From Limibacillus halophilus (GTDB taxonomy: Bacteria > Pseudomonadota > Alphaproteobacteria > Kiloniellales > CECT-8803), in the NCBI RefSeq assembly GCF_014191775.1, contig NZ_JACHXA010000008.1:1-64000 (forward strand): 64,000 nucleotides of DNA, given 5' to 3'. Numbering within the stretch: position 1 is the first letter of the stretch; every line of letters starts with the position of its first letter. This document shows, in pieces, positions 31,657 through 34,874 of this stretch. Made by a program: the position numbers and the translations under genes. Under the pieces are notes generated by a model that had not been told where the DNA came from, did no database searches, and was given only the letters and a program-made list of their open reading frames with translations.

Positions 31657-32613
31657 CTAGCTCAAGCCCTTTTGCCCCATGGCAAGGAACTTCTCCCGGC
31701 GATCCTGGCGCAGCGCATCACCGTCCAGCCCCTTCAGGCTTTCAATCTGTTCCCAGATACTATCGCCCACCCGGCGCATCGCCTCGTCTCGGAAACGGTG
31801 AGACCCGCCAAGTGGTTCCTCGATCACCGCATCAATGACGGCAAGCTTCTTGAGGTCTTGTGCCGTCAGCTTCAGAGCCTCGGCCGCGGATTTCGCCTCG
31901 TCGCCACTCCGCCACAGGATTGATGCGCAGCCCTCCGGCGAGATGACGGAATAGATTGCATGCTCCAGCATAAGAACCCGATTCGCTGCCGCCAGCGCTA
32001 TGGCGCCGCCGGATCCACCTTCGCCTATCACCACGGCAACGAAAGGCACACGAATGTTCAGACCCACCTCGATTGACCGGGCGATAGCCTCTGCCTGACC
32101 TCGTTCTTCGGCCCCTTGCCCCGGATAGGCGCCGGCGGTATCCACAAAAGTGATCACCGGCAAGTCAAAGCGCTCGGCCATCTGCATCAGGCGTTGCGCC
32201 TTGCGGTAGCCTTCAGGACGGGCCATCCCGAAATTACGCTTCACGCGGCTGGTGGTGTCATGACCCTTTTCAGTACCGATCGCCAACACGCTGCGCCCCT
32301 TAAAGCGACCAATCCCGCCGATTACCGCATGGTCCTCACCATACAGGCGATCGCCTGCCAGCGGCACGAAATCCTCGAGCAAGTGCGCGATGTAATCATT
32401 CGCGTGCGGCCGATCCGGGTGGCGCGCGACTTGGGTTTTTTGCCAGGGCGTTAATTTCGCATAGGTTTGCGTCAGCAGGCGGTCGGCCTTCTGCTGCAAG
32501 CGTGAAATCTCCTCCGCGATGTTTACGTCATCATGGTTGGAGAGGTGACGGAGCTCATGGATCTTGCCTTCGAGCTCGGCGATGGGCTGTTCAAAATCAA
32601 GGTATGTCTGCAT
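31657..32613 (-). CDS. accA: Acetyl-CoA carboxylase carboxyltransferase subunit alpha
   Basis: Alpha subunit of the carboxyltransferase that, with AccD, transfers CO2 from biotin to acetyl-CoA to make malonyl-CoA for fatty acids. Family segments include [18 protein letters not shown] at the start, [29 protein letters not shown] and [11 protein letters not shown]. Start Met 32613 gives 318 aa, against 319 in E. coli. A GTG at 32631 would add six residues. It is divergent from the riboswitch-controlled ThiY gene. Confidence 0.97.
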
Positions 32614-32737
32614 GGCGGGCCGTTCTACCACAGGCTTTTATGGAAAGCGAAGCGTAACCTGCTTCATAGAGGTAGCAAAAGGCCTAGGCAATATCTGTGG
32701 CTTGACAGCGGGCGCTGGGACGGTCACTTCTTGGGGC

Positions 32738-32834
32738 GTTCCTAGGGGTGCACGCTATTGCAACGGCGGGCTGAGATTGGGATTTATCCCTGACCCTTAG
32801 AACCTGATCCGGGTCATGCCGGCGCAGGGAATGG
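32738..32834 (+). promoter_or_regulatory. TPP (THI element) riboswitch
   Basis: Thiamine pyrophosphate aptamer recognised by its conserved blocks: GGGGTGC at 32746, GCTGAGAT at 32770, ACCCTTAGAACCTGATC (about 32793-32809), GGGTCATGCCGGCGCAGGGA. The order and spacing match the class. A TTGACA at 32702 could be the -35 box of its promoter, although the -10 is weak. The space to the next start is about 100 bases and the ribosome site can fold into a hairpin. Repression at translation is therefore likely. With accA starting at 32613 leftward, this fills the otherwise gene-free stretch 32614-32934. Confidence 0.95.
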
Positions 32835-32915
32835 AATAGACGCCGCCACACCATCCACGGACGGCAAACCGCTCCTGCTCTTAAGCACCCCGGATCTCCG
32901 CGCCGCCACTTAGAC

Positions 32916-32934
32916 GACAAGGAGGTCCGTTGTC
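32916..32934 (+). promoter_or_regulatory. Hairpin enclosing the ThiY ribosome-binding site
   Basis: GACAA (32916-32920) and TTGTC (32930-32934) are complementary and flank AGGAGG directly before ATG 32935. The inner GGA and TCC could pair as well. The structure could be part of the riboswitch expression platform, hiding the ribosome site. Confidence 0.45.
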
Positions 32935-33882
32935 ATGTTTCGAAAAATCATCCCGGCCCTGGGTATTGCCCTGTCTTTGCTGCTCGCCGCACCAACCCGC
33001 GCGGCCGAGCCTTTTACCGTTCTACTCGATTGGTTCTTGAATCCCGATCATGCGCCTTTGGTCGTTGCCCTGCAAAAAGGCTTCTTCGCCGAGGAAGGGT
33101 TGGCAGTCGACCTTATTGAGCCTGCCGATCCCAACGACCCACCCAAGCTGGTCGCCGCCGGACAGGCGGAGGTCGCCGTTTCCTATCAACCGCAGCTTCA
33201 TATCCTGGTTGGCGAAGGGCTGCCGCTTACACGCATTGCAACGCTGGTGGCAACCCCGCTGAACACCCTTCTGGCGCTGGAAGACGGGCCGATCAAAACC
33301 ATTGGGGATCTGAAAGGACGCAAGATCGGTTACTCGGTCGGCGGCTTCGAAGACGCGTTGCTCGGCGCCATGCTTAAGCAGGTTGGATTGGGGTTGGACG
33401 ACGTGGAGTTGATCAACGTCAACTTCTCGCTCAGTCCTGCCTTGCTATCGGGGCAGGTCGATGCCGTCATCGGCGCCTACAGAAACTTCGAGCTAAATCA
33501 CCTCGATCTGGAAGGCCACAAGGGCCGCGCTTTCTTCATCGAGGAGCACGGCGTACCTGCCTATGACGAATTGATCATCGTCGCCAAGAACGACACCCTC
33601 CGCGATGCCAAGCTTGCGGCTTTTCTGCGGGCGGTGGAGCGCGGCACCACCTACTTGATCAATCATCCGGCAGACAGTTGGGTCGCGTTCCTGGAGTACC
33701 GCCCGGAACTGGATGATGAACTGAACCGTCGCGCCTGGGCCGATACGCTGCCGCGCTTTGCCTTGCGGCCCGCCGCGCTCGACCGCAGTCGCTATGAGGC
33801 CTTCGCCGCTTTCCTGCAAGATCAGGGCGTTATCCGCAACAACCCGGCCCTCGACAGCTATGCGGTGGAAGTCGCCCGCTAG
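32935..33882 (+). CDS. thiY: ThiY-like ABC transporter substrate-binding protein
   Basis: Periplasmic binding protein of the NMT1/THI5-like family, expected to bind a thiamine pyrimidine precursor (formylaminopyrimidine or HMP). Signal peptide 1-23 (ending TRA). The opening VLLDWFLNPDHAPLVVALQKGFF and the middle IGYSVGGFEDALL and YDELIIVAK are ThiY-type. Control by the TPP riboswitch just upstream supports the role. No permease or ATPase gene follows; the next gene is convergent. Its transporter partners must be elsewhere, or it is an orphan. It is 315 aa. Confidence 0.88.
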   Translation: MFRKIIPALGIALSLLLAAPTRAAEPFTVLLDWFLNPDHAPLVVALQKGFFAEEGLAVDLIEPADPNDPPKLVAAGQAEVAVSYQPQLHILVGEGLPLTRIATLVATPLNTLLALEDGPIKTIGDLKGRKIGYSVGGFEDALLGAMLKQVGLGLDDVELINVNFSLSPALLSGQVDAVIGAYRNFELNHLDLEGHKGRAFFIEEHGVPAYDELIIVAKNDTLRDAKLAAFLRAVERGTTYLINHPADSWVAFLEYRPELDDELNRRAWADTLPRFALRPAALDRSRYEAFAAFLQDQGVIRNNPALDSYAVEVAR

Positions 33883-34874
33883 CCTTTTGCCTGGCCCTGG
33901 CCGGCGATCTGCTCGGCGGTTTTGACCATCACCTCCGCCTGCTTGATCGACGCGATGTCGATGAGCCTACCATCCAGAGAGACGGCGCCCTTGCCGTCTT
34001 TCTGGGCCTGCGCCATGGCCTCCAGAATACGCTTGGCCTTGGTGACTTCCTGCTCCGAGGGGCTAAAGACTTCGTTGGCCAGACCGATTTGGCTGGGGTG
34101 AATGGCCCACTTACCTTCACAGCCCAAAACAGCGGCGCGGCGCGCCTGCGCCTTGTAGCCATCGGCATCCGAGTAATCACCGAAAGGACCATCGATGGGG
34201 CGCAAGCCATTGGCACGCGCCGCAACCACCATGCGGGCGATAGCGTAATGCCACATATCACCCCAGTGATAATCGCGCGGCGCCCCATCGGTTGCCGCGT
34301 CTGTCAGCACGCCGTAACTTGGATTCGGTCCGCCGATCCCGGTGGTGCGCGCCTTTGTCGAGGCCGCGTAGTCAGCGACACCGAAATGCAGGCTCTCGTT
34401 GCGCTTTGAGGCTGCGGCGATCTCATGGATGTTTTGCATGCCCAATGCCGTTTCGATGATAAGTTCGAAACCGATACGCTTCTTCCGACCCTTTGCCGCT
34501 TCGATTTGGGTCGCCAGCATATCCAGCGCATAGACATCCTGCGCGGTGCCGACTTTCGGGATCATGATTAGATCGAGACGATCGCCTGCCTGTTCCAGAA
34601 GGTCGACGACATCACGGTACATGTAGTGGGTATCGAGCCCGTTGATCCGCACCGAGAGGGTCTTGTTGCCCCAGTCCACATCGTTGACCGCGGCGATCAC
34701 GTTGCGGCGGGCCTGCACCTTCTCGTCCGGCGCCACGGCGTCCTCCAAATCGAGGAACACCACATCCACCGCGGAGGCCGCTGCCTTCTCGAAAAGCTTG
34801 GGGTTGCTACCGGGAACCGCAAGTTCGCTGCGATTCAATCGCGCTGGAGCCTGTTCGACGATGGTAAAACTCAT
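33879..34874 (-). CDS. HpcH/HpaI family CoA-ester lyase (L-malyl-CoA/beta-methylmalyl-CoA lyase type)
   Basis: TIM-barrel lyase that reversibly splits L-malyl-CoA or beta-methylmalyl-CoA in acetate assimilation by the ethylmalonyl-CoA route. RSELAVPGSNPKLFEKAA, VVFLDLEDAVAPDEK (Mg-binding Glu/Asp), MIPKVGTAQDVY, IGFELIIETALGMQN and KWAIHPSQIGLANEVF are strongly like Rhodobacter Mcl1. Length is 331 aa. The stop overlaps that of the convergent ThiY gene (shared CTAG). Relatives in the same family cleave citramalyl-CoA, so the exact substrate needs caution. Confidence 0.88.
   Translation of the reverse strand: MSFTIVEQAPARLNRSELAVPGSNPKLFEKAAASAVDVVFLDLEDAVAPDEKVQARRNVIAAVNDVDWGNKTLSVRINGLDTHYMYRDVVDLLEQAGDRLDLIMIPKVGTAQDVYALDMLATQIEAAKGRKKRIGFELIIETALGMQNIHEIAAASKRNESLHFGVADYAASTKARTTGIGGPNPSYGVLTDAATDGAPRDYHWGDMWHYAIARMVVAARANGLRPIDGPFGDYSDADGYKAQARRAAVLGCEGKWAIHPSQIGLANEVFSPSEQEVTKAKRILEAMAQAQKDGKGAVSLDGRLIDIASIKQAEVMVKTAEQIAGQGQAKG

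Follow-up and report, generated by a model that had tools for sequence, protein, structure and literature searches.

A TPP riboswitch-linked thiY gene separated from thiZ-thiX in Limibacillus halophilus and its relatives: a probable split ThiXYZ-type pyrimidine importer

In ThiXYZ-type importers, the genes coding for the permease (thiX) and the ATPase (thiZ) are usually found beside thiY, the gene for the binding protein, although this vicinity is not a defining property of the system. The stretch of Limibacillus halophilus DNA analyzed here (64,000 nucleotides, hereafter the window) contains a thiY gene which follows a thiamin pyrophosphate (TPP) riboswitch and is accompanied by neither partner. 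This locus raises the question of which translocator, if any, is served by this binding protein, and of what is controlled when a riboswitch governs the receptor only.

The thiY locus and its riboswitch

The aptamer had been described as complete in the initial annotation, and this is borne out by the Rfam covariance model, which aligns over its whole length and scores 69.5 bits, the gathering threshold being 54.3 (E 1.4e-11 for the search of the 64 kb window) (Table 1). The start given earlier, 32738, correctly located the element but not its exact edge, being 4 bases inside the Rfam start (32734). This riboswitch is the single one of its kind in the window and a whole-genome search led to the same place. 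Two TPP riboswitches were found in total in the genome (150 of 183 candidates scored), the second one preceding thiO, thiG and a ThiE/TenI-family gene. The spacing between the end of the aptamer and the thiY start is 86 bases. No promoter-like site was found in a scan of positions 32600-34000. Two terminator-like sites from the same scan were set aside, as they are located inside the coding region with scores near the shuffle mean.

Table 1. Features of the thiY locus (window positions) and of the thiZ-thiX pair (contig C4)
Feature	Position	Strand	Basis
TPP riboswitch aptamer (THI element)	32734..32848	+	Rfam RF00059, full length, model positions 1-105 of 105
Candidate switch segment GCACCCCGGATCTCC	32885..32899	+	Constrained and free folding; prediction only
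thiY Shine-Dalgarno region AAGGAGGTCC	32919..32928	+	Sequence; folding
thiY, ThiXYZ-type binding protein, 315 aa	32935..33882	+	Pfam NMT1/THI5-like (PF09084) 249.4 bits; closest solved structure 3ix1, E 1.1e-42
CitE/malyl-CoA-lyase-like gene, convergent (context only)	33879..34874	-	PF03328 132.2 bits; TIGR01588 182.5 bits, under cut-off 443.4
accA, divergent upstream neighbour (context only)	31657..32631	-	NF004344 476.3 bits, cut-off 357
thiX, permease	C4:156184-156861	same as thiZ	ThiX profile 334.8 bits
thiZ, ATPase, just upstream of thiX	C4:156927-157622	same as thiX	ThiZ 315.3 bits

The thiY product is a member of the NMT1/THI5-like family, and the solved structure to which it is closest, 3ix1, is that of a binding protein for N-formyl-4-amino-5-aminomethyl-2-methylpyrimidine (FAMP). 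Its N terminus resembles a Sec signal peptide when the translation is inspected by eye, and the protein is likely exported. Its relatives across the order are 57-73% identical to it, and protein family profile searches matched no domain other than the NMT1-type one. Neither thiX nor thiZ was found beside thiY, whether among the open reading frames of the window or by ThiX and ThiZ profile searches of the genome, and the next gene is indeed convergent, as had been reported, namely the lyase-like gene. The stop codons of these two genes overlap at window positions 33879-33882, leaving zero space between them.

The thiZ-thiX pair and the thiamin pathway of the genome

The genome (3.48 Mb, 18 contigs, listed as 100% complete) carries thiY on contig C8. 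The possibility, considered from the outset, that the permease and the ATPase are encoded elsewhere is supported by the presence of a thiZ-thiX pair on contig C4. With a profile derived from 14 operon-encoded ThiX copies, one ThiX was identified, the next-best permease of the genome reaching 209 bits (48 of 60 candidates scored). Similarly, the ThiZ search identified one ThiZ, the next-best ATPase scoring 188.8 bits (150 of 165 candidates scored). The opposite situation, in which a ThiX-ThiZ pair would have its own ThiY elsewhere, was looked for in the genome and is counted as not found, since none of the eight matches listed in an NMT1 search is located on C4. In a tree of 54 permeases, whose 30 rows labelled as split include four taken from ThiX-only genomes, the ThiX of this genome clusters with the ThiX of operons and of other split genomes. 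Four of the five other permeases of the genome included in the tree fall apart from ThiX, and the fifth has a very long branch and an unsure placement. Even with E values as high as 5 admitted, a 19.5 kb stretch surrounding thiZ-thiX yielded no TPP riboswitch.

Directly after thiX lies a gene coding for a UbiE-like SAM methyltransferase (L183:8358-9143, minus strand; G000:C4:155360-156142). Of the 61 genomes of the order, 10 contain relatives of this enzyme scoring at least 235 bits, located after thiX in seven of them (including the present one) and on another contig in three, all belonging to one family. A histone-deacetylase-like gene (AcuC-type by inspection; L183:10880-11980, plus strand) is divergent from thiZ, and a relative of it adjoins thiZ-thiX in 14 of the 30 ThiX loci which were fetched. 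A cobalamin riboswitch (L183:17425-17658, plus strand, 121.9 bits) is found ~7 kb from thiZ, followed by a gene which on inspection looks like a TonB-dependent receptor.

Regarding the thiamin pathway, no match to ThiC was obtained in the genome by a search which was positive in 13 of 14 control genomes. A ThiD-family kinase (302.3 bits) and TenA (C3:133450-134091, 152.7 bits) were identified and, among the genes behind the second riboswitch, thiO scores over its cut-off and the ThiE/TenI-family gene under the thiE cut-off. That no ThiC was found, yet ThiD, ThiO, ThiG, a ThiE/TenI-family protein and TenA are present, makes pyrimidine import the probable thiamin route of this bacterium, the simplest reading of its gene content being that the thiazole half is made and the pyrimidine half is not made but imported. 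No protein of the genome reached the cut-off of the ThiB family (TIGR01254), which distinguishes this system from E. coli ThiB; three weaker matches did not exceed 59.3 bits.

Distribution across the order and competing readings

The arrangement of both genes was determined in 61 genomes of the order, ThiY being counted at 260 bits or more (next value 115) and ThiX at 279 bits or more (next value 209), and both being called linked when located within 6 kb on one strand. This order is probably Kiloniellales, as the thiY leaders of genomes in the set match leaders from Kiloniellales records such as Denitrobaculum and Pelagibius. Split genes were found in 31 genomes and linked genes in 15, these counts being derived mostly from draft genomes; two genomes had ThiY only, four ThiX only and nine neither. 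ThiY and ThiX hence co-occur (46 genomes with both, nine with neither and six discordant; Fisher p 2e-6, genomes treated as independent), and the six genomes with one of them alone are listed as at most 90% complete. Of the 30 ThiX loci which were fetched, 29 have ThiZ next to ThiX, and in the remaining one (L152) ThiZ was not found there. ThiC is present in 11 of the 31 split and six of the 15 linked genomes.

A TPP riboswitch was found ahead of ThiY in 30 of the 31 split genomes, at a distance of 75-195 bases from the ThiY match, one of them (in G004) scoring 54.2, slightly under the cut-off of 54.3. In the single split genome without it, G001, ThiY lies at one end of a contig of 3.6 kb. ThiZ-ThiX is preceded by a TPP riboswitch (at most 2.2 kb upstream) in 11 of the 31 split genomes, which can be divided into 19 with a riboswitch before ThiY only, 11 with one before both halves and one, that with ThiY at a contig end, with neither. 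When the 30 fetched loci of ThiX were scanned with more permissive settings, seven positives were obtained, the same seven as in the main count.

Among close relatives of ThiY (80 loci kept of 100), neighbouring genes were settled by tblastn, with more than 70 bits for the nearness of ThiX, because in G+C-rich loci the choice of the longest ORF had led to false frames. ThiX is near ThiY in 54 of these loci, including most SAR116 and Rhodobacteraceae-type ones, and not near in 26, several of which are on short contigs and one of which has a distant weak ATPase match. Fifteen of the 26 are labelled as Kiloniellales, Kiloniellaceae, Pelagibius or Denitrobaculum; among the others are Tistlia, Ferruginivarius, Aquibaculum, Rhodovibrio, one SAR116 and differently labelled bins. 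Within the same 26 loci, a TenA match was found in 12 and the lyase in 13. A literature search covering titles and abstract openings, with most subscription journals outside its coverage, did not find the split thiY / thiZ-thiX layout described. The parts of this system are of known kinds; it is the recurrent split with one-sided riboswitch control which is the new element.

A gene standing alone can be explained in other ways. ThiY could serve another NMT1-type ABC cassette of the genome, ThiX-ThiZ serving something else. Spare translocators are present, as four other strong NMT1 proteins, 24-29% identical to ThiY, each have an adjoining permease and ATPase (two cassettes at C1 ~18-28 kb, one at C1 ~604 kb and one at C3 ~443 kb). 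However, 1) every other cassette has its own binding protein, 2) the permeases of the genome outside C4 score at most 209 bits against the ThiX profile, compared with 334.8 for the one on C4, and 3) ThiX and ThiY are jointly present or absent in 55 of the 61 genomes, and linked in 15. Such a function for ThiY is thus quite improbable. In one region of C1 (L019:4721-13780), two NMT1-type ABC cassettes flank UbiX-like and UbiD-like genes identified by inspection, possibly forming a catabolic cluster equipped with uptake systems of its own.

More improbable still, ThiY could act as a sensor or a scavenger without translocator, for instance by presenting its ligand to a signalling protein. The absence of a partner gene beside thiY and the convergent neighbour directly downstream would fit such a role, but the same genome contains a matching ThiZ-ThiX pair, ThiX co-occurs with ThiY, and the only domain matched in ThiY is of the NMT1 type. 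The least credible alternative is that ThiY is a bacterial THI5-type HMP-P synthase making the pyrimidine in place of the absent ThiC: although it shares the NMT1/THI5 family with the THI5/THI13 HMP-P synthases (4h65, 4h6d, 4esx, 4esw), THI5 proteins are its next-best solved-structure matches (E 2.9e-28), ThiC was not found in the genome and a ThiY histidine aligns with the yeast THI5 histidine, ThiY differs from these enzymes by its N terminus of the exported-protein type (inspection), is better matched by 3ix1 (149.6 vs 102.2 bits) and, with regard to the yeast cysteine-rich stretch, lysine and histidine which we take to be the THI5 active site, lacks the cysteine-rich stretch, GCCCFC being aligned with GVPAYD (close to GVPEYD of 3ix1), and has a Q aligned with the lysine of yeast KAMIH.

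A candidate switch in the leader and the proposed control of uptake

Collectively, we consider it likely that thiY codes for the binding protein of a ThiXYZ importer in split form, controlled by TPP through a translational switch. This switch is the weakest part of the proposal, because the leader opens only in part when unbound. Folding predicts two alternative pairings for the candidate switch segment: that of its 3' part, CGGATCTCC, with the ribosome-binding site (OFF state), and that of its 5' part, GCACCCC, with the 5' strand of the aptamer (ON state). When the 24 aptamer pairs were enforced, CGGATCTCC paired with GGAGGTCCG and 8 of the 10 bases of AAGGAGGTCC were paired, with a probability near 1. 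The unconstrained best fold, which is 10 kcal/mol more stable, breaks the aptamer, and GCACCCC pairs with the aptamer 5' strand at 0.57. With the aptamer unenforced, 4 of the 10 bases of AAGGAGGTCC are still paired at 0.9 or more; in the unbound leader its two initial A are for the most part unpaired, four bases are unpaired at 0.45 and four at 0.1 or less, and the anti-Shine-Dalgarno sequence pairs with the Shine-Dalgarno sequence at 0.55. These predictions suggest that the bound aptamer may let CGGATCTCC hide the ribosome-binding site.

Comparison of 33 distinct leaders revealed a motif, C(2-4)GGAT[CT][CT]CC, framed after the leaders were seen, in 17 of them, and it is absent from the other 16. 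It is located 38-47 bases ahead of the chosen start codon in 14 leaders and 89 bases ahead of it in three, and in 13 of these 17 leaders it accounts for the longest helix formed with the Shine-Dalgarno region. Some leaders read GGAGATCCG on the Shine-Dalgarno side, the pairing being kept. The Shine-Dalgarno helix is better than that of shuffles at p ≤0.05 in nine of the 33 distinct leaders, the p value for the window's own leader being 0.105, and the stability of the whole leader does not exceed that of shuffles (z -0.20). In a looser duplex-energy test on the same 33 leaders, Shine-Dalgarno pairing had a mean z of -1.20, and ON pairing was no better than with shuffles (mean z 0.18), so that the latter has no comparative support. 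This test of leader pairing was set aside as too loose, G+C-rich leaders pairing about as well with shuffled platforms.

In the proposed mechanism, at low TPP, the aptamer would not be held and the hairpin covering the ribosome-binding site of thiY would be loosened, leading to the synthesis and export of ThiY. In the periplasm, ThiY would bind, as its family membership indicates, a thiamin pyrimidine, either HMP or one of the degradation forms AmMP or FAMP. It would then pass this ligand to ThiX-ThiZ, encoded on the other contig and, in this genome, devoid of TPP riboswitch, a physical partnership to which the co-occurrence of these proteins points. The imported pyrimidine would feed ThiD before being joined to the thiazole half. 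At high TPP, the aptamer would fold, CGGATCTCC would pair with GGAGGTCCG and translation would fall, uptake being throttled via the receptor alone.

The system thus envisaged resembles the ThiXYZ importer to which 3ix1 belongs in that ThiY is of the same family by sequence, a single ThiX and a single ThiZ are present, and a riboswitch precedes a gene of the system; it differs in that thiY stands alone, thiZ-thiX being on another contig without TPP riboswitch. In E. coli, a report on tbpA (thiB), in the thiBPQ operon, describes a TPP-bound riboswitch hiding the Shine-Dalgarno sequence and discusses a Rho-linked effect (PMC11487190). According to the same report, a TPP riboswitch is located directly before a periplasmic binding-protein gene, as it is here, and the masking of the Shine-Dalgarno sequence in the TPP-bound state would be a further likeness, which for the thiY leader is a prediction only; in contrast, permease and ATPase genes follow in E. 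coli, whereas only the binding protein is found here (PMC11487190). In Pelagibacterales without thiC, thiV adjoins a TPP riboswitch, as stated in another report (PMC10881298). Both cases combine a missing ThiC with a riboswitch-linked pyrimidine transporter gene, but the transporter is the sodium symporter ThiV in Pelagibacterales and an ABC-type ThiXYZ system here (PMC10881298).

A broader scenario, unlikely when taken as one joint reading, is that across the order B1 status would set pyrimidine uptake by rationing the periplasmic receptor only. ThiZ-ThiX would be produced free of control by TPP and, in some members of the order, alongside a dedicated methyltransferase involved in an undescribed pyrimidine-salvage step, and the riboswitch would have stayed with the receptor at operon break-up because the receptor sets the flux.

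Judged by its sequences, the system is probably a ThiXYZ-type importer of pyrimidines, of a kind already known, whose split form is recurrent through the order. The distribution of riboswitches in the 31 split genomes (19/11/1) constitutes a natural comparison for binding-protein supply limiting an ABC importer, and surveys seeking thiXYZ as a single operon would overlook or misfile such a split importer.
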